Source: Ramlibacter paludis (GTDB taxonomy: Bacteria; Pseudomonadota; Gammaproteobacteria; Burkholderiales; Burkholderiaceae_C). From it: a DNA stretch of 64,000 nucleotides. How positions within the stretch are numbered: position 1 is the first letter of the stretch; each line of letters begins with the position of its first letter. A program made the position numbers and the translations under genes. The notes beneath the pieces are model-generated. The model had not been told where the DNA came from and made no database searches. It saw nothing but the letters and a program-made list of their open reading frames with translations. Location of the stretch: positions 620,001 through 684,000 of the forward strand of contig NZ_JAKLTM010000001.1 of the NCBI RefSeq assembly GCF_022012305.1. Direction: 5' to 3'. Of this stretch, positions 41,415 through 63,833 are shown piece after piece.

Positions 41415-42083
41415 TTACATCTGGTGACTACCCGGCAAGTCTTGAAGCATTCCCTTGCGCTCGATGAACTTGACGACTTCGTCGAGCCCCGTTCGCGTCT
41501 TCAGGTTGGTCATCACGAAGGGCTTGTCGCGGCGCATGCGGCGCGTGTCGGCTTCCATCACGCCCAGGTCGGCGCCCACGTAGGGCGCCAGGTCGGTCTT
41601 GTTGATGACGAACAGGTCGCTCTTGGTGATGCCGGGCCCGCCCTTGCGCGGGATCTTCTCGCCCGCGGCGACGTCGATCACGTAGATGGTGAGGTCGCTC
41701 AGTTCCGGGCTGAACGTGGCCGCCAGGTTGTCGCCGCCCGATTCGACGAACACGATGTCGGCATCCGGGAAATTCTCCAGCATGCGGTCGATCGCCTCCA
41801 GGTTGATGGAGGCATCCTCGCGGATCGCCGTGTGCGGGCAGCCGCCGGTCTCCACGCCGACGATGCGTTCGGCCGGCAGCGCGCCGCTCACGGTCAGCAG
41901 GCGCTGGTCTTCCTTGGTGTAGATGTCGTTGGTGATGGCCACCAGGTCGTAGCGCTCGCGCATGGCCTTGCACAGCATCTCCAGCAGCGTCGTCTTCCCC
42001 GAGCCGACCGGGCCGCCGATTCCGACGCGCAGCGGCGGCAATTTCTTGGTGCGGTTGGCGATGTGGTGCAGTTGGGTGGTCAT
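41415..42083 (-). CDS. ureG: Urease accessory GTPase UreG
   Basis: 222 residues. GTPase that drives nickel delivery to urease. Walker [25 protein letters not shown] (the Cys-Pro-His nickel motif), [18 protein letters not shown], and the base-specificity motif NKTD in [13 protein letters not shown]-terminal region THxHxxxx is short here ([10 protein letters not shown]). ATG at 42083 overlaps the ureF stop by 4 bp. Last gene of the ureABCEFG set. Confidence 0.97.
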
Positions 42084-42724
42084 GAGCGGAACAGTCGCGA
42101 GTATTGCGTTTCGTGGCGAGCGGAAAGGATGGCCAGCATCGGCGTGAAGGCCTGCGGCGCGCTGGCCAAGGCGTGGTCGACCGCGGCGGGGATCTCTTGC
42201 GCCAGGCGGCCCAGGATGCGCTGGCCGGCGGCCTGCCCCAGCGGCACCGACTTGATCGCGGCCTGCATCATGTTTTCGGACCAGCCGAAGGCGTAGGCGA
42301 GGCAGGTGGCACGGGCGGGGGCGCCTTGGGCGGCGAGGGCGAAGGCGACGGGGTAGGTCCTGGACTGCGGATCTTCGGATGGTGGGGTCGCTGCGCGAAC
42401 CCACCCTACGTCGGAGAGGGAACGGCCCATCTGTTCGGATTGCAGGCGGAACTCGCTGGTCTCGCGCGTCTGTCGAACCCAGTCGTCCATCTCGGCAGCG
42501 CGCGCAGGGCCTTGCGCCACCGCGGCCACCACGGCGAGGTCGCCGCGGGCCACCGCCACCAGCAATTGGTCCACCAGCCAGTCGCCCGCGCTCTCCTCGT
42601 CGCGGACCAGACCGGCTTCCACGGCCGCCTCGATGCCCTCCGAATAGGAGAAACCGCCCACGGGCAGGGCCGGCGAGGCCAGCCACGTGAGGCGCAGCAG
42701 TTCTTCGTCAGTGAGCGTGGTCAT
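42080..42724 (-). CDS. ureF: Urease accessory protein UreF
   Basis: 214 residues, helical. UreF, with UreD and UreG, forms the complex that activates the urease active site. Family features: [32 protein letters not shown] at the N-terminus and the C-terminal RLFRS end. The ATG at 42724 is preferred over one 24 bp upstream. It overlaps ureE by 17 bp and ureG by 4 bp. The residues between 115 and 130 contain a Pro/Ser-rich loop. Start uncertain only by a few codons. Confidence 0.93.
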
Positions 42725-43193
42725 GGCCGTGGTGGCCGCCGGCGGCATAGGCGCCGCCTTCCGGTTCGAAAGCGGCGTCCTGCGGCTTCACGATCAGGTG
42801 CATGGCGCGCAGCATGTCGGCCAGCACGTGGTCCGGTTCGATCTTGAGGTGGTCGGGCTTGAGCTCGATGGCAACGTGGCGGTTGCCCAGGTGGTAGGCC
42901 GCGCGCACCAGGTCGAAAGGCGTACCGTGCTCGGGGCAGTGCGTGATCACCAGCACCGGCTGCGCGGCGGCGATGACGCGGATCATCGAGCCGTCCTCCG
43001 CCACCAGCACGTCGTCGCCGCGCACCACGGTGCCGCGCGGCAGGAACACGCCGAGCCGGCGGCCCTGCGAATCGGTGGCGTCGAAGCGGCTTTTCTGGCG
43101 CACGTCCCAGTCGAGTTCCACGCTGGCGGCACGCTTGAGGAGGACGGGGGCCAGCCCCTGCCCCCGCGGCAGGATCTTCGAAACTTGCAGCAT
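42708..43193 (-). CDS. ureE: Urease accessory protein UreE (nickel metallochaperone)
   Basis: 161 residues. N-terminal peptide-binding-like domain ([36 protein letters not shown]) and the C-terminal nickel domain with NRHVAIEL, the conserved His, and a His-rich tail [10 protein letters not shown]. It carries nickel for urease maturation. Lies 7 bp downstream of ureC and overlaps ureF by 17 bp. Confidence 0.95.
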
Positions 43194-43200
43194 GCGCGGA

Positions 43201-44919
<1,719 letters not shown>

Positions 44920-45225
44920 CTAGAGTTTTCCTTGCACCAGCGCGCGGAAGCCGTGCACGATGCGGTCGCCGGCGAAGTCGACGAGTTCCACCGTGCGCTG
45001 CTGGCCCGGCTCGAAGCGCACGGCCGTGCCGGACGCGATGTTCAGGCGCATGCCGCGCGCCGCTGCGCGGTCGAAGGACAGGGCACCGTTGGTCTCGGCA
45101 AAGTGGTAGTGCGAGCCGACCTGGATCGGCCGGTCGGCGGTGTTCTGCACGACGACGGTGAGCGTCCGGCGGCCGGCGTTGAGCGCGTGGTCGCCGGCGT
45201 CGGTGAGCAGTTCGCCCGGGATCAC
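44920..45225 (-). CDS. ureB: Urease subunit beta
   Basis: 101 residues from a GTG at 45225 ([22 protein letters not shown]). The UreB pattern [61 protein letters not shown] is intact, including the conserved HYHF region. The length agrees with separate beta subunits (about 100). The GTG fits the known UreB start and lies 4 bp after the small HPGH gene. Followed directly by ureC. Confidence 0.95.
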
Positions 45226-45229
45226 CGTC

Positions 45230-45400
45230 TCAGTCCCCGCGCGACAGCCACAGCGCGATGCCGGCCAGCACGGCCACCGTGAGGAAGCCCGCGGTGTCGC
45301 TGGCATGCCAGTGCCATTCGCTCACCGCGCCGTGGCCCGGGTGCGCGTGGGCGGAGGCGGCAAACGCCCACAGGGCGGCGGGCAGCAGGCGCTGGAACAT
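45230..45400 (-). CDS. Small HPGH-motif membrane protein in the urease operon
   Basis: 56 residues. The ATG at 45400 has GGAGAACG just upstream. A signal or first membrane segment ([15 protein letters not shown]) is followed by [16 protein letters not shown] and one hydrophobic helix ([15 protein letters not shown]). HPGHG after a signal is the opening of HupE/UreJ nickel permeases, and this is where ureJ lies in many urease operons (between ureA and ureB), but only a single helix remains. It may bind nickel at the His-rich patch. It is too short for usual gene calling, yet fits the operon spacing and is supported by position. Confidence 0.75.
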
Positions 45401-45417: not shown

Positions 45418-45720
45418 TCAGACGATGGGCTGGTGCACCGTGACCAGCTTGGTGCCGTCGGGAAAGGTGGCCTCGACCTGGATCTCCGGGATCATCTCGG
45501 CGACGCCTTCCATCACCTGCGCGCGGGTCAGCACGCTGCGGCCTTCGCTCATGAGCTGCGCCACGGACTTGCCGTCGCGCGCGCCTTCGAGCACCGCCGC
45601 CGAGATCAAGGCCATCGCCTCCGGGTAGTTCAGCCGCAGCCCGCGCGCCAGGCGCCGCTCCGCCAGCAGGGCGGCGGTGAACAGCAGCAGCTTGTCCTTC
45701 TCGCGGGGGGTGAGTTCCAT
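45418..45720 (-). CDS. ureA: Urease subunit gamma
   Basis: 100 residues: [50 protein letters not shown], then the conserved [17 protein letters not shown] and a C-terminal [15 protein letters not shown]. Textbook UreA. It is the first urease gene on this strand; the transporter-kinase gene starts 57 bp away on the other strand. The ureD gene that usually precedes ureA is not here. Confidence 0.97.
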
Positions 45721-45777
45721 GGGCTAACGATCTTAGTGCAAGAGCTGGGCCAGGCATGGAACGTGCACTTGCCTTGC

Positions 45778-48700
45778 GTGAGCCGCACCATCCCCATCCA
45801 CCCCGCCGAAGCGCCGCAGCGCGTGGTGAAGGTGCGCCGCGACTACAACAGCTGGGTCGCGCACGAGACGATGGAAGACTACGCGCTGCGCTACACGCCG
45901 GAGCGCTTTCGCAAGTGGTCGACCTTCCGCGTCGCCAACACCGCGTTCGGGGCAGCCTCGTTCCTGATCCTCGAGGCGGTGGGGGCCACGCTGCTGGTGC
46001 AGTACGGGTTCATGAATGCCTTCTGGGCCATCCTGGCCACCGGCCTCATCATCTTCGTCGCCGGCCTGCCGATCTCCATCTACGCCGCGCGCTACGGCGC
46101 CGACATGGACCTGCTCACGCGCGGGGCGGGCTTCGGCTACATCGGCTCGACGCTCACCTCGCTGATCTACGCGAGCTTCACCTTCATCTTCTTCGCGCTC
46201 GAGGCGGCGGTGATGGCCTATGCGCTCGACCTGGCGCTGGGGATCCCGCCCTCGTGGGGCTACCTGATCTGCGCGCTGGTGGTGATCCCGCTGGTCACGC
46301 ACGGCGTGTCCGCCATCAGCCGGCTGCAGGCCTGGACGCAGCCGGTCTGGCTGGTGATGCTGGTGGTGCCTTTCGTCTACGTGCTGCTGCGCGACCCTGG
46401 TGCATTCAACGGAATCGTGCACTACGCCGGGGAGAAATCGGCGGGCAGCGGCTTCGAACTGCACTTGTTTGGTGCCGCGCTCACGGTGGGCATCGCGCTG
46501 ATCACGCAGATGGGCGAACAGGCCGACTACCTGCGCTTCATGCCGGCGCGCACCGCGGCGAACCGCAAGGCCTGGTGGGCCGGCGTGCTGGCGGGCGGGC
46601 CGGGCTGGGTGATCCTGGGCGTGGTGAAGATGCTGGGCGGCGCGCTGCTCGCCTACCTTGCGATCCAGCACATGGTGCCGCTGGATCGCGCGGTCGACCC
46701 AAACCAGATGTACCTGGCCGCCTACGAATACGTCTTTCCCAACTACGGCTGGGCGGTGGCGGCGACGGCGCTGTTCGTGGTGATCTCGCAGCTGAAGATC
46801 AACGTGACCAATGCCTATGCGGGCTCGCTGGCCTGGTCCAACTTCTTCTCGCGCCTCACGCACAGCCACCCGGGGCGCGTGGTCTGGGTCGTGTTCAACA
46901 CGCTGATCGCCTTCATGCTGATGGAGATGAACGTGTTCCAGGCGCTGGGCGACGTGCTGGGGCTGTATTCCAACATTGCCATCGCCTGGATGATGGCGGT
47001 GGTGGCGGACCTCGTCGTCAACAAGCCGCTGGGGCTGTCGCCGCCGGGCATCGAGTTCAAGCGCGCGCACCTCTACGACATCAACCCGGTGGGCGTCGGC
47101 GCGATGGCGCTGGCGTCGCTGCTGTCCATCAGCGCCTACCTGGGCGTGTTCGGGCCCACGGCGCAGGCGTTCTCGGCGCTGATCGCGATGGGCGTGGCCT
47201 TCGTCACGGCGCCCCTGATCGCATGGGGGACCCAGGGCCGGTACTACATCGCGCGCACCCCGGTCGCCGAATTCGACCGGCTCGCCACGCACCGCTGCGT
47301 GATCTGCGAGCGCGAGTACGAAGGCCCGGACATGGCGCACTGCCCGGCGTACCAGGGCCCCATCTGTTCGCTGTGCTGCACGCTGGACGCGCGCTGCGGC
47401 GACCTGTGCAAACCGCACGCAAGCCTGTCGGCGCAATGGTCGGGCGCGCTGCGGGCCTTGCTGCCGCGGCGCGTGTGGCCTTACCTCGACACCGGCCTCG
47501 GCCACTTCCTGCTGCTGATGCTGGTGATCGCGCCGTTGCTGGCCGCGTTGTTCGGCCTGCTATACCACCAGGAGGTGCAGGCGCTGCCGCAGCCCAGCGA
47601 GCCGGGCTGGCTTGTGCAAGGCACCCTGAAGGCCACCTTCGTCAAGGCCTACTTCGCCTTGCTGCTGGTGGCCGGCATCGTGGCGTGGTGGCTGGTGCTG
47701 GCGCACAAGAGCCGGCAGGTGGCGCAGGAGGAATCCAACCGGCAGTCCAACCTGCTGATGCGCGAGATCGAATCGCACCGCCAGACCGACGAGGCGCTGC
47801 AGCAGGCGCGCCGCGTGGCCGAATCCGCCAACCAGGCCAAGAGCCGCTACATCAGCGCCATCAGCCACGAACTGCGCACGCCCTTGAACAGCATCCTCGG
47901 CTACGCGCAGCTGATGGGCGAGGACGCGGCCATCCCCTCGCATCGCAAACACGCGGTCAACGTCATCCGGCGCGGCGGCGAGCACCTGCTGTCGCTGATC
48001 GAAGGCACGCTGGACATCGCGCGCATCGAGTCGGGCAAGCTGACGCTGAACGTCGCGCCCATGCGCTTTGCGGATTTCGTGCACGAGATGGCCGGCCTGT
48101 TCGAGCTGCAGGCCGCCGCCAAGGGCCTGGCCTTCCGCTTCGAGACCGAAGGCGCCGTGCCCGAGGTGGTACGCGCCGACGAGAAGCGGGTGCGCCAGAT
48201 CCTGATCAACCTGCTGGGCAACGCGATCAAGTTCACGTCCGAAGGGCGCGTCGTGTTCCGCATCCGGCACTCCCGCGAGATGGCGCTGATCGAGGTGGAG
48301 GACACCGGGCCGGGCCTCACGCAAGAGGAACTGGCGACCATCTTCGAGCCCTTCGCGCGTGGCAACAGCGCGAGCCACTCGGCGCCCGGCGCCGGGCTGG
48401 GGCTGACCATCGCCAAGATGCTCACCGACCTGATGGGCGGCGAGCTCTCCGCGCGCAGCACGCCGCGCGTGGGTTCGGTGTTCCGCGTCCGGCTGTTCCT
48501 GCCGGAGGTGCATGCAGCCGCCGTCGCGCGGGTAGCGCCGCCCCGGCTGCGTCGCGCCTACGAAGGCGCGCGCCGCAAGATCCTCGTGGTGGACAACGAG
48601 GAGGCCGACCGCGAACTGCTGGTGCACCTGCTGGCGCCCCTCGGCTTCGAGCTCCGCACCGCCGCCAGCGGCCACGATGCGCTCGACCTGCTTGCCGCGG

Positions 48701-49185
48701 GCCTGCAGCCCGACGCGGTGCTGGTCGACCTCGCCATGCCCGGCATCGACGGCTGGGAAACGATCCGGCGCATCCGCCGCATGGAGCACTTGCGGGCGAA
48801 GGTGGCGGTGGTCTCGGCCAACGCCTTCGACAAGGGGCTGGAGAACGACGCCGGCATCCGCGCGGAGGACTTCATACTGAAGCCGGTGCGGCACAGCGAG
48901 CTGCTGGACTGGCTGGAGCGCTCGCTGCAGTTGCGCTGGCTGCAGGAGGCGCCGGTTGCGGCGCCGGAACCGGCGCCAGCGCAGGAGTGGGTGCGGCCCG
49001 CGCCGGACCTGCTCGCGCCGCTGCAGCAGGCGGTGCAGCTCGGCTACTACCGCGGCATCCTCAACCAGCTCGACGCGATCGACGCCGCCTCGCCGGCCTG
49101 CGCCGGCTTCACTGCCGCCATGCGTGAACTCGCGCGCAACTTCCGCTTCGAGGCGATCGGCCAGGCGCTGGAGCCCACCCCATGA
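45778..49185 (+). CDS. Hybrid NCS1-type transporter - histidine kinase - receiver protein
   Basis: 1135 residues from a GTG at 45778. Residues about 30-490 resemble an NCS1 purine/cytosine permease (DYNSWVAHETMEDYALRYTPERFRKWS, then about 12 helices with FVAGLPISIYAARYGADMDLLTRGAGFGYIGSTLTSLIYASF). Residues 507-544 hold eight Cys (CVIC...CSLCC...C...C), a possible metal site. Two more helices follow (about 568-650), then a histidine kinase: ISHELRTPLNSILG with His697, ATPase with NLLGNAIKF and LGLTIAKMLTD, and a receiver with Asp984 in VLVDLAMPGIDGW. It overlaps the LuxR regulator by 4 bp and is divergent from ureA. Likely senses uptake or presence of a nitrogenous ligand; transport may be partly lost. 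Confidence 0.87.
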   Translation: MSRTIPIHPAEAPQRVVKVRRDYNSWVAHETMEDYALRYTPERFRKWSTFRVANTAFGAASFLILEAVGATLLVQYGFMNAFWAILATGLIIFVAGLPISIYAARYGADMDLLTRGAGFGYIGSTLTSLIYASFTFIFFALEAAVMAYALDLALGIPPSWGYLICALVVIPLVTHGVSAISRLQAWTQPVWLVMLVVPFVYVLLRDPGAFNGIVHYAGEKSAGSGFELHLFGAALTVGIALITQMGEQADYLRFMPARTAANRKAWWAGVLAGGPGWVILGVVKMLGGALLAYLAIQHMVPLDRAVDPNQMYLAAYEYVFPNYGWAVAATALFVVISQLKINVTNAYAGSLAWSNFFSRLTHSHPGRVVWVVFNTLIAFMLMEMNVFQALGDVLGLYSNIAIAWMMAVVADLVVNKPLGLSPPGIEFKRAHLYDINPVGVGAMALASLLSISAYLGVFGPTAQAFSALIAMGVAFVTAPLIAWGTQGRYYIARTPVAEFDRLATHRCVICEREYEGPDMAHCPAYQGPICSLCCTLDARCGDLCKPHASLSAQWSGALRALLPRRVWPYLDTGLGHFLLLMLVIAPLLAALFGLLYHQEVQALPQPSEPGWLVQGTLKATFVKAYFALLLVAGIVAWWLVLAHKSRQVAQEESNRQSNLLMREIESHRQTDEALQQARRVAESANQAKSRYISAISHELRTPLNSILGYAQLMGEDAAIPSHRKHAVNVIRRGGEHLLSLIEGTLDIARIESGKLTLNVAPMRFADFVHEMAGLFELQAAAKGLAFRFETEGAVPEVVRADEKRVRQILINLLGNAIKFTSEGRVVFRIRHSREMALIEVEDTGPGLTQEELATIFEPFARGNSASHSAPGAGLGLTIAKMLTDLMGGELSARSTPRVGSVFRVRLFLPEVHAAAVARVAPPRLRRAYEGARRKILVVDNEEADRELLVHLLAPLGFELRTAASGHDALDLLAAGLQPDAVLVDLAMPGIDGWETIRRIRRMEHLRAKVAVVSANAFDKGLENDAGIRAEDFILKPVRHSELLDWLERSLQLRWLQEAPVAAPEPAPAQEWVRPAPDLLAPLQQAVQLGYYRGILNQLDAIDAASPACAGFTAAMRELARNFRFEAIGQALEPTP

Positions 49186-50129
49186 ATGCGCTCCCCGATC
49201 GCGTCGACAGCGACGTGGTGCTGGTCGTCGACGACGTTCCCGATAACCTCTCGGTGCTGCACGACGCGCTGGACGAGTCCGGTTACACGGTGCTGGTCGC
49301 CACCAGCGGCGAAGCCGCGCTGCAGCGCGCGGCGCAGGCCTTGCCCGACATCGTGCTGCTCGACGCGATGATGCCGGGCCTCGATGGCTTCGAAGTCGCC
49401 CGGCGGCTGAAGGCGGGGCCGCAGACGGCGCACATTCCCATCATCTTCATGACGGGTCTCACCGAGACCGAGCACCTGGTCGCCGCGCTGGAGGCGGGCG
49501 GTGTCGATTACGTCACCAAGCCGATCAAGCCCAAGGAAGTGCTGGCGCGCATGGGCGTGCATCTGCAGAGCGCGCGCCTCGCGCGCCAGACGCGCAATGC
49601 GCTCGACGCCTTCGGCTACGCGAGCATCACCGTGCGTCCCAGCGACGGCCGCCTGATGTGGCAGACGCCGCTGGCGCGCGACTTGTTGAAGGCGTACTAC
49701 GGAACCAGCGCGCCGGAAACGCCGGCGCCGGTGCTGGAGTGGCTGCGCCGCCACCTGCAGGACGCCGAACGCAACATCGAGCCGCCGCGGCTGTCGGCGC
49801 AGCAGGGCGCGCGGCGGCTGTCGATCCGGCTGCACCAGCAGACCGGCGACGACGACTGGCTGATCGTGATGCGCGAAGTGTCCGACGCCGTGGTGATCGA
49901 GGCGATGGGCCTGGCCTTCAAGCTGACTGCGCGCGAGGCCGAGGTGCTGTACTGGGTGGTGAAGGGCAAGATCAATCGCGACATCGCCGACATCCTCGGC
50001 GCCAGCCCGGCGACGGTGAAGAAGCACCTGGAGCGGATCTTCGTCAAGCTGGGCGTGGAGACGCGGACCTCGGCGGCCGCGATGGCGATGAACCGCATCC
50101 GGCAGCTGCATCCGCAGTTCGAGGCTTGA
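49182..50129 (+). CDS. LuxR-type response regulator
   Basis: 315 residues. N-terminal receiver (VLVVDDVPDNLSVLH, phosphoacceptor Asp61 in DIVLLDAMMPGLDGF, Thr in IIFMTGLT, Lys in YVTKPIK), a middle part of about 90 residues, and a C-terminal LuxR helix-turn-helix (LTAREAEVLYWVVKGKINRDIADILGASPATVKKHLERIFVKLGVETRT). It overlaps the hybrid kinase by 4 bp, so it is almost certainly the output partner, perhaps controlling the divergent urease operon. A repeat and the pdxA gene follow. Confidence 0.93.
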   Translation: MNALPDRVDSDVVLVVDDVPDNLSVLHDALDESGYTVLVATSGEAALQRAAQALPDIVLLDAMMPGLDGFEVARRLKAGPQTAHIPIIFMTGLTETEHLVAALEAGGVDYVTKPIKPKEVLARMGVHLQSARLARQTRNALDAFGYASITVRPSDGRLMWQTPLARDLLKAYYGTSAPETPAPVLEWLRRHLQDAERNIEPPRLSAQQGARRLSIRLHQQTGDDDWLIVMREVSDAVVIEAMGLAFKLTAREAEVLYWVVKGKINRDIADILGASPATVKKHLERIFVKLGVETRTSAAAMAMNRIRQLHPQFEA

Positions 50130-53968: not shown

Positions 53969-54850
53969 TTAGTCAGCGCGTTCCTGATCGTTGAAGCCCA
54001 GAGCGATACGAGTGTTCCAGCGGAAGTCGAACTCGTTGCAGTAACGCTGGAGGTGCTTCTCGCTCACGCTGTGGAACGTGCCGACGAGGCCACGCTTCAA
54101 GAGTGAGAACGAGGCTTCAACCGTGTTGCTCGACACGTTGCCGCGCACGTACTCACCCTTGTTGTGGTTCACGTACTGGTGCGAGGCGAACTCCTTGCCG
54201 ATGGCGCGGTAGTACTTCGCAGAGTCCGTCATCAGGTGGGCTTCGGGCGAGACCTGCGACTTGAGAACAGCCTTGAGGGTCTGGCCGTTCACGTTGGGGA
54301 TGTGGAAGGAGCGCTTCTCGCCGTTACGCTCAACGAGCGACACGATCATCATCCTGTGGCGGAAGCCGCCCTTCGGCGTGCGGATCTTCTTGTCGTCCTT
54401 GTCGGTGGCAGTGCCCCAATAGGTTTCATCGGCTTCAACGATGCCACCGTTGCTGCCCATCAAGCCGCCGCCTTCGGTGGTCATGGCGGCGCGAATGCGG
54501 TGGGCCATGAACCAGGCCGTCTTATAGGTGACGCCCAGCATGCGTTCCAGTTGCTTGGCGCTGATGCCCTTCTTGCTGGCGCACATCAGATGCACGGCTT
54601 GCAGCCAGACGTTCAGCGCGATCTTGGAGCGTTCAAAGACAGTGCCCACGGTGACGGTGAACTGCTCGTAGCAGTCGGAGCACTTGAAGAGGCCCGGACG
54701 GTAAGCCTTACCCTTGAGGGTCAGATGCTTGCCGCTGACAGAACCGCAGTGCGGGCAAACCGGGCCACTCGGCCAGCGCAGAGCCTCCAAGTACTCGCGG
54801 GCCTTGTCGGCGTCTTGGAACTGCGGCTGGTTGAGGATTGCTTCGGCCAT
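53969..54850 (-). CDS. IS1595-family (ISXO2-like) transposase
   Basis: 293 residues. N-terminal zinc ribbon (CPHCGSVSG..., then FKCSDCYEQFTVTVGTVFERSKI) and a helix-turn-helix-like part (SAKQLERMLGVTYKTAWFMAHRIR), followed by the ISXO2-type DDE domain: VEADETYWG (first Asp-Glu), LMTDSAKYYRAIGKEF (second Asp), HVNHNKGEYVRGNVSSNTVEASFSLLKRG (Asn replaces Glu in part of the family, His/Glu region present). The start at 54850 lies 7 bp after a consensus-like promoter in the right repeat. The frame looks intact, so the element may be active. Confidence 0.95.
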   Translation of the reverse strand: MAEAILNQPQFQDADKAREYLEALRWPSGPVCPHCGSVSGKHLTLKGKAYRPGLFKCSDCYEQFTVTVGTVFERSKIALNVWLQAVHLMCASKKGISAKQLERMLGVTYKTAWFMAHRIRAAMTTEGGGLMGSNGGIVEADETYWGTATDKDDKKIRTPKGGFRHRMMIVSLVERNGEKRSFHIPNVNGQTLKAVLKSQVSPEAHLMTDSAKYYRAIGKEFASHQYVNHNKGEYVRGNVSSNTVEASFSLLKRGLVGTFHSVSEKHLQRYCNEFDFRWNTRIALGFNDQERAD

Positions 54851-57865: not shown

Positions 57866-58029
57866 GGGAGCGATTGAGCCGCGCGGCCGGGGTGCCGCGT
57901 GTCGGACGGCGGCGCATCCGCTGCCGGGCGTTCGCCGTCGCTCCATGCCGGAGCCGTACGCCATGTGCCGTACATACCGCCGCGCTTGCCATCCCTAGAG
58001 TGGACCTGTCATTTCAGGAGCAACCCAGC

Positions 58030-59304
58030 ATGCAACGTCGTTTCACCCTCCAGGCCCTCACGGCCGCCGTCGCCCTGGCCGCCGCCGGCCTGCCGGCCTT
58101 TGCCGCCGAAGGCACCATCAAGGTCGGCATCCTCCACAGCCTGTCCGGCACCATGGCCATCTCGGAAACCGTGCTCAAGGACACGGCGCTGATGGCCATC
58201 GAGGAAATCAACGCCAAGGGCGGCGTCCTCGGCAAGAAGCTGGAGCCCGTGGTCGTCGACCCGGCTTCCAACTGGCCGCTGTTCGCCGAGAAGACCAAGC
58301 AACTGCTGACCCAGGACAAGGTCGCCGTCATCTTCGGCTGCTGGACGTCGGTCAGCCGCAAGTCGGTGCTGCCGGTGGTCGAGGAGCTGAACGGCCTGCT
58401 GTTCTACCCGGTGCAGTACGAGGGCGAGGAGCTGTCCAAGAACGTGTTCTACACGGGCGCGGCGCCCAACCAGCAGGCCATCCCGGCCGTCGAATACCTG
58501 ATGTCCAAGGACGGCGGCGGCGCCAAGCGCTTCGTGCTGCTGGGCACCGACTACGTCTACCCGCGCACCACCAACAAGATCCTGCGCGCCTTCCTCAAGT
58601 CCAAGGGCATCGCCGACGCGGACATCATGGAGGAATACACCCCCTTCGGCCACAGCGACTACCAGACCATCATCGCCAAGGTGAAGAAGTTCTCCAGCGA
58701 AGGCAAGAAGACGGCGGTGATCTCCACGATCAACGGCGACTCCAACGTGCCCTTCTACAAGGAGCTGGGCAACGCCGGCCTGAAGGCCAAGGACGTCCCG
58801 GTCGTCGCCTTCTCGGTGGGCGAGGAAGAACTGCGCGGCGTCGACACCAAGCCGCTGGTGGGCCACCTGGCCGCCTGGAACTACTTCATGTCGGTGAAGA
58901 ACCCGACCAACAGCGAGTTCACCAAGAAGTGGGGCGCCTACGCCAAGACCAAGTCCATCGCCGGCCACAAGGACAAGCCGCTGACCAACGACCCGATGGA
59001 AGCCACCTACATCGGCGTGCACATGTGGGCCCAGGCCGTCGAGAAGGCCAAGTCCACCGATACCGACAAGGTGATCGCAGCGATGGCCGGCCAGACCTTC
59101 AAGGCGCCCAGCGGCTTCACGGCCACCATGGACATGAAGAACCACCACCTGCACAAGCCGGTGTTCATCGGCGAAGTGAAGTCCGACGGCCAGTTCAACG
59201 TGGTGTGGAAGACGCCCGGCCCGGTGAAGGCCAAGCCCTGGTCGCCCTTCATCGACGGCAACGACAAGAAGAAGGACGAGCCGGACGGCAAGAGCAAGAC
59301 GTAA
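58030..59304 (+). CDS. urtA: Urea ABC transporter, substrate-binding protein
   Basis: 424 residues. Periplasmic, Sec signal (FTLQALTAAVALAAAGLPAFAA). The mature part follows the UrtA pattern: IKVGILHSLSGTMAISE, LFAEKTKQLLTQDKVAVIFGCWTSVSRKSVLPVVEE, LLFYPVQYEGEE, FVLLGTDYVYPRTTNKI and AWNYF. The ATG at 58030 has CAGGAG 8 bases before it. First gene of urtABCDE. The ligand is urea or a short-chain amide. A palindromic repeat separates it from urtB. Confidence 0.96.
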   Translation: MQRRFTLQALTAAVALAAAGLPAFAAEGTIKVGILHSLSGTMAISETVLKDTALMAIEEINAKGGVLGKKLEPVVVDPASNWPLFAEKTKQLLTQDKVAVIFGCWTSVSRKSVLPVVEELNGLLFYPVQYEGEELSKNVFYTGAAPNQQAIPAVEYLMSKDGGGAKRFVLLGTDYVYPRTTNKILRAFLKSKGIADADIMEEYTPFGHSDYQTIIAKVKKFSSEGKKTAVISTINGDSNVPFYKELGNAGLKAKDVPVVAFSVGEEELRGVDTKPLVGHLAAWNYFMSVKNPTNSEFTKKWGAYAKTKSIAGHKDKPLTNDPMEATYIGVHMWAQAVEKAKSTDTDKVIAAMAGQTFKAPSGFTATMDMKNHHLHKPVFIGEVKSDGQFNVVWKTPGPVKAKPWSPFIDGNDKKKDEPDGKSKT

Positions 59305-59407: not shown

Positions 59408-60973
59408 ATGCTCCATCGACTTCTCCTCCTGCTGGCGCTGTTCGCCGGCAGCGCCCACGCCCTCACGAACGACGAGGCGGCGGCCCTTGCCATCGGCGAG
59501 ACCGACACGCGCGTCGAAGCGCTGAACAAGGCCGTGGGCAACGCCGACGACAAGACGGCGGCCTTCCTGCAGGCGCTGTCCGATGACGCGGTGAAGACCG
59601 CCGGCGGCAAGGTCTTCGTGGTGCGCGACGACAAGGCCAGCGATCCCGTCACGGGCGCCGCGGTGCAAGTGCCCGCCGACGCCGAAGACGTGGTCAACAA
59701 CAATCGCATGCGCGGCGAGCTCGACTCCGCCCTCGCTGCGCTCAAGCTCTTCTCCCGCGACGCGAAGCTGCGCAGCGCCGCCATCGCCGAACTGCAGAAG
59801 GATCCCGACGAATCCAAGCTGCCGCTCATCGAGAAAGCCTGGGCGGCCGAACAGGATGCCGCCATCAAGGAGCAGCTGGGCCTCATCCGCGCCCAGGCCT
59901 TGCTCACCAGCAGCGACAAGGCGCGCCGGCTGGAAGCGGCGCAGATGCTGGCCGGCAGCAGGAGTTCTTCCACCCGCAGCCTGCTGCTGCAACGGCTGAA
60001 GGAGGAACAGGACGCCGACGTCAAGTTCGCCCTGCAAGGATCGCTGCGCGCGGTGGAAGGCTCGCTCGCCTGGAGCGAACGCGCCGCCGCCGTCTTCTCG
60101 GGCATCAGCCTCGGCTCCATCCTGCTGCTGGTGGCGCTGGGCCTGGCCATCACCTACGGGCTGATGGGCGTGATCAACATGGCGCACGGCGAGCTGATGA
60201 TGATCGGCGCGTACGCGACCTTCGTCGTGCAGGGCCTGTTTCGCAAGTACCTGCCCGGCGCCTTCGACTGGTACCTGGTCGCCGCGCTGCCGGCGGCCTT
60301 CCTCGCCTCCGCGCTGATGGGCGCGATCCTGGAACGCGGCGTGATCCGCTTCCTGTACGGGCGCCCGCTGGAAACGCTGCTGGCCACCTGGGGCATCAGC
60401 CTCATGTTGATGCAGCTGGTGCGCAGCGTCTTCGGCGCGCAGAACGTCGGCGTCGAGAATCCCAGCTGGATGAGCGGCGGGCTGGTGATGGGCAACCTGC
60501 AGCTGCCCTGGAACCGCATCGTCATCGTCGGTTTCGCCTTCGCCGTGCTGGGCGGCATGGCGCTGCTGATCGCGCGCACGCGGCTCGGCCTGTTCGTGCG
60601 CGGCGTCACGCAGAACCGGCCGATCGCGTCCTGCATGGGCGTGAACACGGCGCGTGTCGATACCTATGCCTTCGCGCTGGGCTCCGGCATCGCGGGGCTG
60701 GCGGGCTGCGCATTGAGCCAGGTCGGCAACGTCGGTCCGGACCTCGGGCAGGCCTACATCGTCGATGCGTTCATGGTCGTGGTGCTGGGCGGCGTGGGGC
60801 AGCTCGCGGGTACCGTCTATGCGGCGCTCGGCCTGGGCATCCTGAACAAGTTCATCGAAGGCTGGGCCGGCGCGGTGCTGGCCAAGATCGCGGTGCTGGT
60901 GATCATCGTGGTGTTCATCCAGAAACGGCCGCAGGGGCTGTTCGCGGTCAAGGGACGGAGTGCGGAGGCATGA
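59408..60973 (+). CDS. urtB: Urea ABC transporter, permease UrtB
   Basis: 521 residues. Signal peptide (LHRLLLLLALFAGSAHA) and a long periplasmic N-terminal part (about 20-230) that UrtB proteins carry, then the permease domain: SGISLGSILLLVALGLAITYGLMGVINMAHGELMMIGAYATFVVQ, GAILERGVIRFLYGRPLETLLATWGISLMLMQLVR and C-terminal FIEGWAGAVLAKIAVLVIIVVFIQKRPQGLF. The ATG at 59408 is chosen; one 7 codons upstream is inside the repeat. It overlaps urtC by 4 bp. Confidence 0.95.
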   Translation: MLHRLLLLLALFAGSAHALTNDEAAALAIGETDTRVEALNKAVGNADDKTAAFLQALSDDAVKTAGGKVFVVRDDKASDPVTGAAVQVPADAEDVVNNNRMRGELDSALAALKLFSRDAKLRSAAIAELQKDPDESKLPLIEKAWAAEQDAAIKEQLGLIRAQALLTSSDKARRLEAAQMLAGSRSSSTRSLLLQRLKEEQDADVKFALQGSLRAVEGSLAWSERAAAVFSGISLGSILLLVALGLAITYGLMGVINMAHGELMMIGAYATFVVQGLFRKYLPGAFDWYLVAALPAAFLASALMGAILERGVIRFLYGRPLETLLATWGISLMLMQLVRSVFGAQNVGVENPSWMSGGLVMGNLQLPWNRIVIVGFAFAVLGGMALLIARTRLGLFVRGVTQNRPIASCMGVNTARVDTYAFALGSGIAGLAGCALSQVGNVGPDLGQAYIVDAFMVVVLGGVGQLAGTVYAALGLGILNKFIEGWAGAVLAKIAVLVIIVVFIQKRPQGLFAVKGRSAEA

Positions 60974-62159
60974 GCGCAGTTTTGCCACCCGAGTCGGTTT
61001 TCGAACCTGCGGCGACTAGCGCCGCCCCCACCCCTACCCTCCCTCCGAAGGCTAGGGAGGACGTCATGCGGCGCAAGCCGCTGCTGACCAAGGCCGGCTG
61101 GACGTCCTTCCTCGCGGCAGTGGTGCTGGTCTGCGCCGTCGCGCCGCTGCTGAACCTCGTGGTTCCGGCCACGAGCCCGTTCCACATGAGCGACTACGCC
61201 GTCGCCCTGGTCGGCAAGATCATGTGCTACGCCATCGCGGCGCTGGCCATGGACCTGATCTGGGGCTACACCGGCATCCTGTCGCTGGGACACGGCCTGT
61301 TCTTCGCGCTGGGCGGCTATGCGATGGGCATGTACCTGATGCGGCAGATCGGGCGCGAGGGCAACTACAAGAGCGACCTGCCGGACTTCATGGTGTTCCT
61401 GGACTGGAAGGCGCTGCCCTGGCACTGGACCTTCTCCGACAGCCTGTTCGCCACCTGCATCCTGATCGTGGCCGTGCCCGGCATCGTCGCCTTCGTCTTC
61501 GGCTACTTCGCCTTCCGCTCGCGCATCAAGGGCGTGTACTTCTCGATCATCACGCAGGCGCTCACGTACGCCGCGATGCTGCTGTTCTTCCGCAACGAGA
61601 CCGGCTTCGGCGGCAACAACGGCTTCACCGACTTCAAGCGCATCGCCGGCATCGCCATCGCCACGCCGCAGACGCGCATGACGCTGTTCGTGTTGACGGG
61701 CCTCACGCTCCTCGGCTTCTTCCTGCTGGCGCGCTTCCTCGTGGCCAGCAAGTTCGGCCGCGTGCTGCAGGCGATCCGCGACGCCGAGTCGCGCGTGATG
61801 TTCTCCGGCTACAACCCGATCGGCTTCAAGCTCGCCATCTGGACGCTGTCGGCCATCATGTGCGGCGTGGCCGGCGCGCTCTACGTGCCGCAGGTGGGCA
61901 TCATCAACCCGGGCGAGATGAGCCCGGCCAACTCGATCGAGATCGCGATCTGGGCCGCGGTCGGCGGCCGCGCCACGCTGGTCGGCCCCATCGTCGGCGC
62001 CTTCATCGTCAACGGCGCCAAGAGCTGGCTCACGGTGTTCGCGCCCGAGTTCTGGCTGTACTTCCTGGGCGCGCTCTTCATCGCCGTCACGCTGTTCCTG
62101 CCCGATGGCGTGGCCGGCCTGGCGAAGAAGCTGTGGAACAAGGCGGGGAGGACGCGCGC

Positions 62160-62163
<4 letters not shown>
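60970..62163 (+). CDS. urtC: Urea ABC transporter, permease UrtC
   Basis: 397 residues from the ATG at 60970, which overlaps the urtB TGA and follows GGAGG. A second ATG at 61066 has AGGGAGG just before it and would begin directly with RRKPLLTKAGW, the more usual UrtC start. The 32 residues between (Pro/Ala/Thr-rich) are encoded by a repeat-like GC-rich stretch. The permease part is typical: DLIWGYTGILSLGHGLFFALGGYAMGMYLM, FGYFAFRSRIKGVYFSIITQALTYAAMLLF and FVNGAKSWLTVF-type end. Its stop overlaps urtD by 4 bp. Start left open. Confidence 0.94.
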
Positions 62164-63035
<872 letters not shown>

Positions 63036-63049
63036 ACGTAGCCAAGAGG

Positions 63050-63136
63050 GTCTGGAGGCTAGAGGCTGGAGACTAGGGGAAACAGCCTGGGGCCCGACGC
63101 GCGTTCTTCCCTAGCCTCTAGCCTCCAGTCTCTAGC
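63050..63136. repeat. Mosaic inverted repeat (CTAGAGGCTGGAG type) between urtD and urtE
   Basis: Left arm 63051-63080 and right arm 63108-63135 share CTGGAGGCTAGAGGCT in inverse orientation, surrounding about 27 bp. The arms are built from short blocks (TAGAGGC, TGGAGAC, CTAGGG) repeated in varied order. Confidence 0.65.
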
Positions 63137-63140
63137 ACCT

Positions 63141-63833
63141 ATGCTCTCAATCAAGAACGTCAACCAGTACTACGGCGGCTCGCACATCCTGCGCGACGTC
63201 AGCCTCGATGCGCACCTGGGCAAGGTCACGGTGATCCTGGGGCGCAATGGCGTCGGCAAGACGACGCTGCTCAAGGCGCTGATGGGCCTGGTGCCGGTGA
63301 AGACCGGCACGGTGGAATTCGACGGCAAGGCCATCACGCATGCCACGCCTTATCAGCGCGCCCGCGCCGGCATCGGCTTCGTGCCGCAGGGGCGGGAGAT
63401 CTTCGCGCGGCTGAGCGTCGAGGAGAACCTGCGCATGGGCCTGGCCACGCAGCCGGGCAGCACGCCGATGCCGGCCGAGCTGTTCGAGCTGTTTCCGGTG
63501 CTGAAGCAGATGCTGCACCGGCGCGGCGGCGATCTCTCCGGCGGGCAGCAGCAGCAGCTGGCCATCGCCCGCGCGCTGGCTTCCAAACCCCGGTTGCTGG
63601 TGCTGGACGAGCCCACGGAGGGCATCCAGCCCAGCATCATCAAGGACATCGGCCGCGTGATCCGCATGCTGGCGGACCGCGGCGACATGGCCATCCTGCT
63701 GGTCGAGCAGTACTACGACTTCGCCCAGGAACTGGCCGACGACTACCTGGTGATGGAGCGCGGCGAGGTGATCGCGCGCGGCCGTGGCAAGGACATGGAG
63801 GCCGACGGCGTGCGGCAACTAGTAGCCATCTAG
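63141..63833 (+). CDS. urtE: Urea ABC transporter, ATP-binding protein UrtE
   Basis: 230 residues. Walker A LGRNGVGKTTLLKALMG, signature LSGGQQQQLAIARAL, Walker B LLVLDEPTEGIQPS and switch His region VEQYYDFAQ. The partner of UrtD. The ATG at 63141 follows the mosaic repeat and has no strong ribosome site. Last gene of the urt operon; an inverted repeat (63839-63858) follows its stop. Confidence 0.95.
   Translation: MLSIKNVNQYYGGSHILRDVSLDAHLGKVTVILGRNGVGKTTLLKALMGLVPVKTGTVEFDGKAITHATPYQRARAGIGFVPQGREIFARLSVEENLRMGLATQPGSTPMPAELFELFPVLKQMLHRRGGDLSGGQQQQLAIARALASKPRLLVLDEPTEGIQPSIIKDIGRVIRMLADRGDMAILLVEQYYDFAQELADDYLVMERGEVIARGRGKDMEADGVRQLVAI

Follow-up and report, generated by a model that had tools for sequence, protein, structure and literature searches.

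A putative urea and short-chain-amide sensor kinase with an NCS1-type membrane domain in Ramlibacter paludis and other Pseudomonadota

A hybrid kinase and its regulator beside the urease genes

We analysed a stretch of 64,000 nucleotides from Ramlibacter paludis (contig NZ_JAKLTM010000001.1, positions 620,001 to 684,000 of the forward strand), referred to below as the window and numbered from its first letter. The subject of this work is a gene pair on its plus strand. The first gene (45778..49185) encodes, in a single frame, a hybrid histidine kinase of 1135 residues, in which an NCS1-type membrane domain, an eight-cysteine module and two further membrane helices precede the kinase domains. 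The second (49182..50129) encodes a response regulator of 315 residues, composed according to Pfam of Response_reg and the LuxR-type DNA-binding domain GerE; the two genes share 4 bp, from the start of the regulator to the stop of the kinase, and Asp61 is present in the regulator. The urease gene ureA (45418..45720, minus strand, start at 45720) is divergent from the kinase gene at a distance of 57 bp. Frame, overlap and gap had all been read in the initial annotation, and the coordinates were verified. The kinase was taken to begin at the GTG at 45778; with an open frame reaching upstream to 45433, this start is uncertain.

The N-terminal domain occupies residues about 46-490 (45913..47247, by hhalign and hydropathy) and is followed by the eight-Cys module at residues 507-544 (47296..47409) and the two extra helices at residues 575-637 (47500..47688, by hydropathy). 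Pfam assigned the remainder to HisKA (residues 687-753, 47836..48036) with the phospho-acceptor His697, HATPase_c (residues 801-908, 48178..48501) and a Response_reg receiver (residues 935-1045, 48580..48912) with Asp984. Pfam gave no match in residues 1-680 and showed no phosphotransfer domain in the C-terminal tail. Family-averaged hydropathy, with split peaks counted as one, displayed 12 hydrophobic segments at about 61-478 and then two more at 575-594 and 621-637, in agreement with the initial helix count. His697, Asp984 and the cysteines reported for 507-544 are likewise all present in the sequence, the latter at 507, 510, 522, 530, 533, 534, 540 and 544 in the pattern C-x2-C-x(8-13)-C-x7-C-x2-CC-x5-C-x3-C. 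The module, for which Pfam returned only chance-level matches (for example Cript, E 0.15 in one homologue), probably binds metal.

Many proteobacteria share the fusion. Residues 1-660 were matched in 46 of 99 genomes of relatives, the source genome counted and one genome (G085) contributing only a distant stand-alone relative, and many of the matched genomes hold full-length homologues in one frame; Ramlibacter pallidus carries the same gene. All 166 distinct open reading frames (ORFs) longer than 600 residues with the signature GEQ[AV]D[YF]LRF contain the eight-Cys motif. Of 398 genomes sampled across the phylum, 57 were matched by a profile of the relatives. Of the 57, 52 were counted as fusion genomes on the strength of a long match, and G136, G289, G331, G382 and G450, with weak or short matches, were set aside. 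With one genome taken per species, at least 584 stretches encode a relative, and 80 of them formed the set that we call genome_contigs. Conservation across many genomes as one frame indicates that the fusion is genuine: the concern raised at the outset, that it might stem from a missing stop or from an assembly join, is ruled out by the single-frame homologues and the motif in 166 of 166 ORFs.

Several copies depart from the common form. The gene is broken in G014 and in the second copy of G049, and it is divided over contigs in G001. In one homologue (L016:985-4941) an in-frame stop stands right beside the phospho-acceptor His, by sequencing error or decay. Two copies from the same genus (L041, L042) span 1195 aligned columns, compared with at most 1181 in other sister copies, and so contain extra residues; their alignment breaks near residue 500, directly before the Cys module. 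Two further loci (L184:8299-10956 and L185:8363-11062) place the NCS1-Cys-two-helix part on a different kinase lacking the usual hybrid receiver, with a separate receiver-kinase protein after it and fmdA about 3-4 kb away. Finally, a hybrid kinase at L187:9857-11713 has a Cys-rich start and two helices without the NCS1 part, and faces a LuxR-type regulator; it is perhaps a derived form.

Relationship of the membrane domain to NCS1 permeases

Direct searches did not place the N-terminal domain in a family. The NCS1 profile PF02133 gave no match to the window protein at E<=1 and none to seven homologues at E<=5, and a whole-genome search with it did not recover the window gene. PF00474, the profile of the SSS/SLC5 family, gave no match in the window protein, and a PDB sequence search with residues 1-660 returned nothing at E<=1. 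We then compared profiles with profiles, setting a 44-sequence profile of the sensor against sets gathered with PF02133 and PF00474. The NCS1 set (30 sequences) aligned with an hhalign value of 99.3% (E 7.4e-21) over 436 columns, compared with 1.0% (E 0.053) for the SSS set (11 sequences). On this comparison, the only kind that detects it, the N-terminus is NCS1-related over its whole length, and membership of the SSS family is ruled out. The initial annotation had called the region an NCS1-type permease and had set it apart from the transporter family of CbrA; both points are borne out, the first despite the silence of PF02133.

Motifs D-[FY]-x-R and FG-x-x-G are common to the sensor and many rows of the NCS1 alignment. 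In the sensor family itself E66, E247, Q248, K340, N342 and N345 are identical in 115 of 115 rows (113 distinct), including sensors linked to urease genes and sensors linked to amide genes; with E142 added, the set, which lies in helices 1, 3, 6 and 8, is kept in 114 or 115 of the 115 rows. Judged from the alignment with NCS1 members, these Glu, Gln, Lys and Asn residues may line a pocket. The invariant Glu and Lys membrane positions were not seen in the NCS1 comparison set.

This last observation bears on whether the domain still transports. Under the reading favoured below, that the domain senses urea or short-chain amides, one sub-case would have it work as a urea/amide symporter, with transport rather than occupancy driving the kinase. 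Homology to NCS1 over the whole length is in keeping with such a role, and a passage of PMC13022988 presents CbrA as a transceptor that contains a transporter domain. Against it, the invariant K340 of helix 8 is absent from those NCS1 rows that could be read (three, L218, L219 and L228, were in the wrong frame in this column and unreadable) and might mark lost ion coupling; moreover, a dedicated importer, Urt, already belongs to the module. We regard active transport as possible, though the less probable mode of action.

Gene neighbourhood, promoters and a predicted operator

In the window, ureA is followed on the minus strand by ureB (44920-45222), ureC (43201-44919) and ureE, ureF and ureG (41415..43193). 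Downstream of the regulator, on the plus strand, lie the genes of the urea ATP-binding cassette transporter: urtA, encoding the binding protein (58030..59287, from the ATG at 58030 to the end of homology; TIGR03407, 599.6 bits), and urtBCDE (59486..63774, homology bounds). The window's urtA is 8 kb downstream of the regulator; in sister species the interval is 1.6-3.7 kb (seven loci). The greater distance may be due to a transposase insert; a probable transposase gene (IS1595-like by eye; 53969-54850, minus strand) lies between regulator and urtA, together with pdxA- and tctC-like genes. Two other features of the urease genes were noted: an ORF of 56 residues with an apparent signal peptide and a hydrophobic stretch in the interval between ureA and ureB (45230-45400, minus strand), and a ureD located outside the cluster, after urtE and about 1.2 kb beyond the end of the window (L252:2154-2751, minus strand).

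Related loci fall mainly into two arrangements. In the urease type, the kinase-regulator pair is divergent from ureA, and in many loci urtABCDE lies downstream of the regulator (1.3-5.3 kb in nine measured loci). In the amide type, the pair is divergent from urtABCDE-fmdA-fmdB-amiE or part of it. Other families (L023, L024, L173) have the pair downstream of ureG in the same direction. At one locus (L028), UrtA to UrtE, the formamidase FmdA (735.7 bits) and the aliphatic amidase AmiE (709.5 bits) scored above the NCBIfam curated cut-offs, as did UrtA in L027 and L117; genes of the other loci were named by BLAST to these and to the window genes. In a gene tree built by a quick method the urease-type and amide-type labels cluster, neither forming one clade (11 and 8 changes), and the alignment contains positions that tell the two kinds of sensor apart.

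Urea or amide genes were present in the fetched flanks of 53 of 55 kinase loci from the phylum-wide draw, the two misses (L195, L201) ending at contig ends, and in the flanks of 63 of the 80 genome_contigs loci, where 7 of the 17 misses have cut flanks. At 19 loci of ordinary NCS1 genes, two of which reach 14 kb only, the count was zero, bar one 26% match to the nitrilase superfamily. UrtA above the cut-off was found in 50 of 52 fusion genomes compared with 85 of 346 others (Fisher 1.8e-24, a value that overstates the association because relatedness is uncorrected). The link of the fusion to urea metabolism, proposed from the window alone, is in this way supported by the neighbours.

The initial annotation had suggested a purine, allantoin or a related nitrogen compound as the signal. 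On such a reading, urease would be induced since purine breakdown ends in urea. NCS1 members do transport purines, allantoin or hydantoins, and a distant stand-alone relative of the sensor (L040, 25% identity) adjoins hydantoinase-like genes by our reading of the ORFs. However, the genes that recur across the 55 and 80 loci are urt, ure, fmdA and amiE, all of them concerned with urea or short-chain amides; in the amide-type lineages the sensor goes together with formamidase and aliphatic amidase, two enzymes not fed by purines; identical membrane residues are kept in both types; and the nearer stand-alone relative (L186, 29%) adjoins a gene of nitrilase type and one for a UrtA/AmiC-like binding protein. 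No purine or allantoin gene was noticed among those neighbour proteins whose starts were viewed; no search aimed at such genes was made. We rejected purine or allantoin sensing on the gene neighbourhood and consider it very improbable.

The same neighbourhood bears on the Cys module, which could itself read a metal, redox or nitrogen-status signal while the NCS1 part is dead or merely structural. The presence of the eight cysteines in every distinct ORF fits this reading, as does the L187 kinase, which retains a Cys-rich stretch, the two helices and the kinase in the absence of an NCS1 part. Yet conservation of the NCS1 part is strong and extends to invariant polar and charged residues in the membrane. 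Formamidase FmdA and amidase AmiE are not known to need nickel, and the sensor copies linked to them, which have no urease nickel requirement, keep the Cys module; nickel sensing for urease is accordingly disfavoured. Overall, a signal read by the cysteines with an idle NCS1 part appears unlikely.

The intergenic regions contain two kinds of element. Scanning with the -24/-12 consensus, we found sigma-54-like elements facing the kinase (45752..45767, plus strand) and ureA (45737..45752, minus strand). Among 81 distinct kinase-ureA gaps, 74 have a kinase-facing and 74 a ureA-facing element (shuffle means 3.7 and 3.9). Of 40 distinct kinase-urtA gaps, 19 have a kinase-facing element (shuffle mean 2.5), and elements facing urtA are at chance (2 of 40, shuffle mean 2.2). 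A sigma-70 pattern scan upstream of urtA yielded nothing.

Ahead of urtA, the recurring element is the palindrome TACG-N8-CGTA. The window has a single exact instance, TACGCCATGTGCCGTA (57957..57972, plus strand), 58 bp before the urtA ATG, which we predict to be the operator of the regulator. Allowing one mismatch, a scan of the source genome gave 2 forward and 2 reverse matches, compared with 9 and 10 for a reversed control pattern; because one-mismatch matches do not exceed the control, we gave meaning only to the exact site before urtA. The palindrome occurs in 35 of the 40 kinase-urtA gaps at no more than one mismatch, 30 times exactly (shuffle mean 2.7, maximum 8), and neighbouring spacer lengths gave 3 and 4 cases only. 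Where urtA is not adjacent, an exact palindrome lies within 500 bp upstream in 40 of 43 distinct loci (shuffle mean 0.04), a set that includes the window and in which several loci are closely related to each other. A related site with one mismatch, never an exact one, was found in 21 of the 81 kinase-ureA gaps (shuffle mean 1.2); the gap of the window is not one of the 21.

The site follows urtA beyond the kinase locus. In all four urease-type Comamonadaceae that have urtA on the contig of the kinase but at a distance of 40-245 kb (G117, G320, G479, G469), the palindrome is present, and in two genomes with the kinase beside urease (G239, G254) it precedes a further urtA copy; altogether 6 of 20 further urtA copies in kinase genomes have it. 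In genomes without the kinase, none of 20 urtA genes is preceded by an exact palindrome and one by a site with a single mismatch. Within the sets tested, the palindrome is confined to genomes with the kinase. As an outside test we took 12 genomes, ten with no urea gene close to the kinase and two with a cut flank: UrtA was found in 9 of them, and an exact palindrome precedes 7 of these 9 urtA genes. The initial proposal that the system controls urea breakdown stands in part, since the connection with urea holds, but the predicted operator precedes the importer genes urtABCDE, and ureA has a sigma-54-like promoter instead.

The module also occurs on plasmids. Among 72,556 plasmid records, 543 match the sensor part, and in 511 the match covers 80% of it or more. 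Klebsiella accounts for 342 of the 543, with about 47% identity among the matches listed. In two Klebsiella stretches the order formamidase-urtEDCBA is divergent from the kinase, the regulator is annotated next in one of them, and the kinase-urt gap holds the same palindrome. On three plasmids (L315, L316, L317) the amide-type module, with formamidase, urtABCDE, kinase and, where annotated, regulator, has transposase genes nearby.

Proposed mechanism and relation to known systems

We consider it likely that the pair is a two-component system for urea and short-chain amides, built on an NCS1-type transceptor, whose regulator activates Urt uptake. Urea or a related small amide would bind directly to the NCS1-fold membrane domain, and the resulting shape change would reach the hybrid kinase by way of the eight-Cys module and the two additional helices. 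The regulator, a LuxR-type protein encoded in the same operon, would then be phosphorylated, bind TACG-N8-CGTA and activate, rather than repress, the importer genes urtABCDE; in amide-type lineages it would also activate the formamidase and amidase genes downstream of urtA. The sigma-54-like promoters suggest that nitrogen limitation supplies the sensor and, in the urease type, urease, leaving the inducer to switch on uptake.

Several observations weigh against this interpretation. Homology to NCS1 is in itself no proof that the domain binds a ligand. At ten of the 80 genome_contigs loci, with flanks of at least 8.5 kb, no urea gene lies in the vicinity. The palindrome is missing from the ureA-kinase gap of the window, from three same-locus urtA promoters of the 43 (L105, L175, L180) and from 14 of the 20 further urtA copies in kinase genomes, which we read as second copies in amide-type genomes. 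In the outside test, UrtA was not found at E<=1e-120 in 3 of 12 genomes, and 2 of the 9 urtA promoters had no exact palindrome. Lastly, the window's kinase-facing sigma-54-like element is very close to the GTG at 45778, so that the start site or the element is perhaps misread.

We lean, with less assurance than for the system itself, towards a broader view in which NCS1-fold sensors with an eight-Cys module, carried on kinases of at least two types, form a distinct transceptor class: a general sensor of urea and short-chain amides as inducers, found on plasmids and in several Pseudomonadota classes, in which a single operator ties the sensor to urtABCDE anywhere in the genome. For this group, the literature searched contains no description of how urea or small amides are detected as inducers of the widespread UrtABCDE importer. 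The analysis supplies a candidate sensor, a regulator and a precise DNA site for this induction, and the question is therefore open to a reporter test. It points as well to the genes that probably control the Klebsiella plasmid urt-formamidase module, which among the matches listed are annotated only in general terms such as hybrid kinase or ATP-binding protein, and it adds a second transporter family, with a linker that Pfam does not recognise, to the few known transporter-kinase fusions.

Searches of open-access literature listed no account of an NCS1-kinase or of a sensor for urea or amides with this build. Two members of the family nevertheless seem to be in print without comment, judging from length, gene order and context: a 1131-residue 'histidine kinase' with a 308-residue receiver adjoining UrtA in Dechloromonas aromatica (in a passage of PMC2907700), and, beside a second urt operon of Ectopseudomonas guguanensis, a hybrid kinase accompanied by a LuxR-type regulator (in a passage of PMC13296017). 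A passage on the Methylophilus fmdCABDEF operon for short-chain amides and urea names no membrane sensor. AmiC/AmiR of Pseudomonas resembles the present system in that sensing of short amides controls amidase and uptake genes (in a passage of PMC13209695), but it consists of a soluble binding protein and an antiterminator, with no kinase. With the NCS1 permeases of PF02133 the sensor shares a full-length profile match, twelve helices and common motifs; it differs in escaping PF02133, in its invariant membrane Glu and Lys residues and in carrying a kinase.

The closest parallels are CbrA and CrbS of the SLC5/STAC group, in which a transporter domain is likewise fused to a HisKA/HATPase kinase; that of CbrA has 13 helices (in a passage of PMC13022988). 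As here, CrbS is a hybrid kinase whose partner, a LuxR-type regulator, acts on an inverted repeat, and the ACTU sites of CrbR, such as TACTACCATCGTCGAAT, by our reading resemble TACG-N8-CGTA (both in passages of PMC5715377). The systems differ in the transporter family, SSS there and NCS1 here (hhalign 1.0% as against 99.3%). They appear to differ also in the connection to the kinase, where CbrA has a four-helix STAC domain and the present protein has in its place the eight-Cys module and two helices, a region in which Pfam gave no match. The linked genes are those for acetate or histidine in CbrA and CrbS, and those for urea and amides in the system described here.

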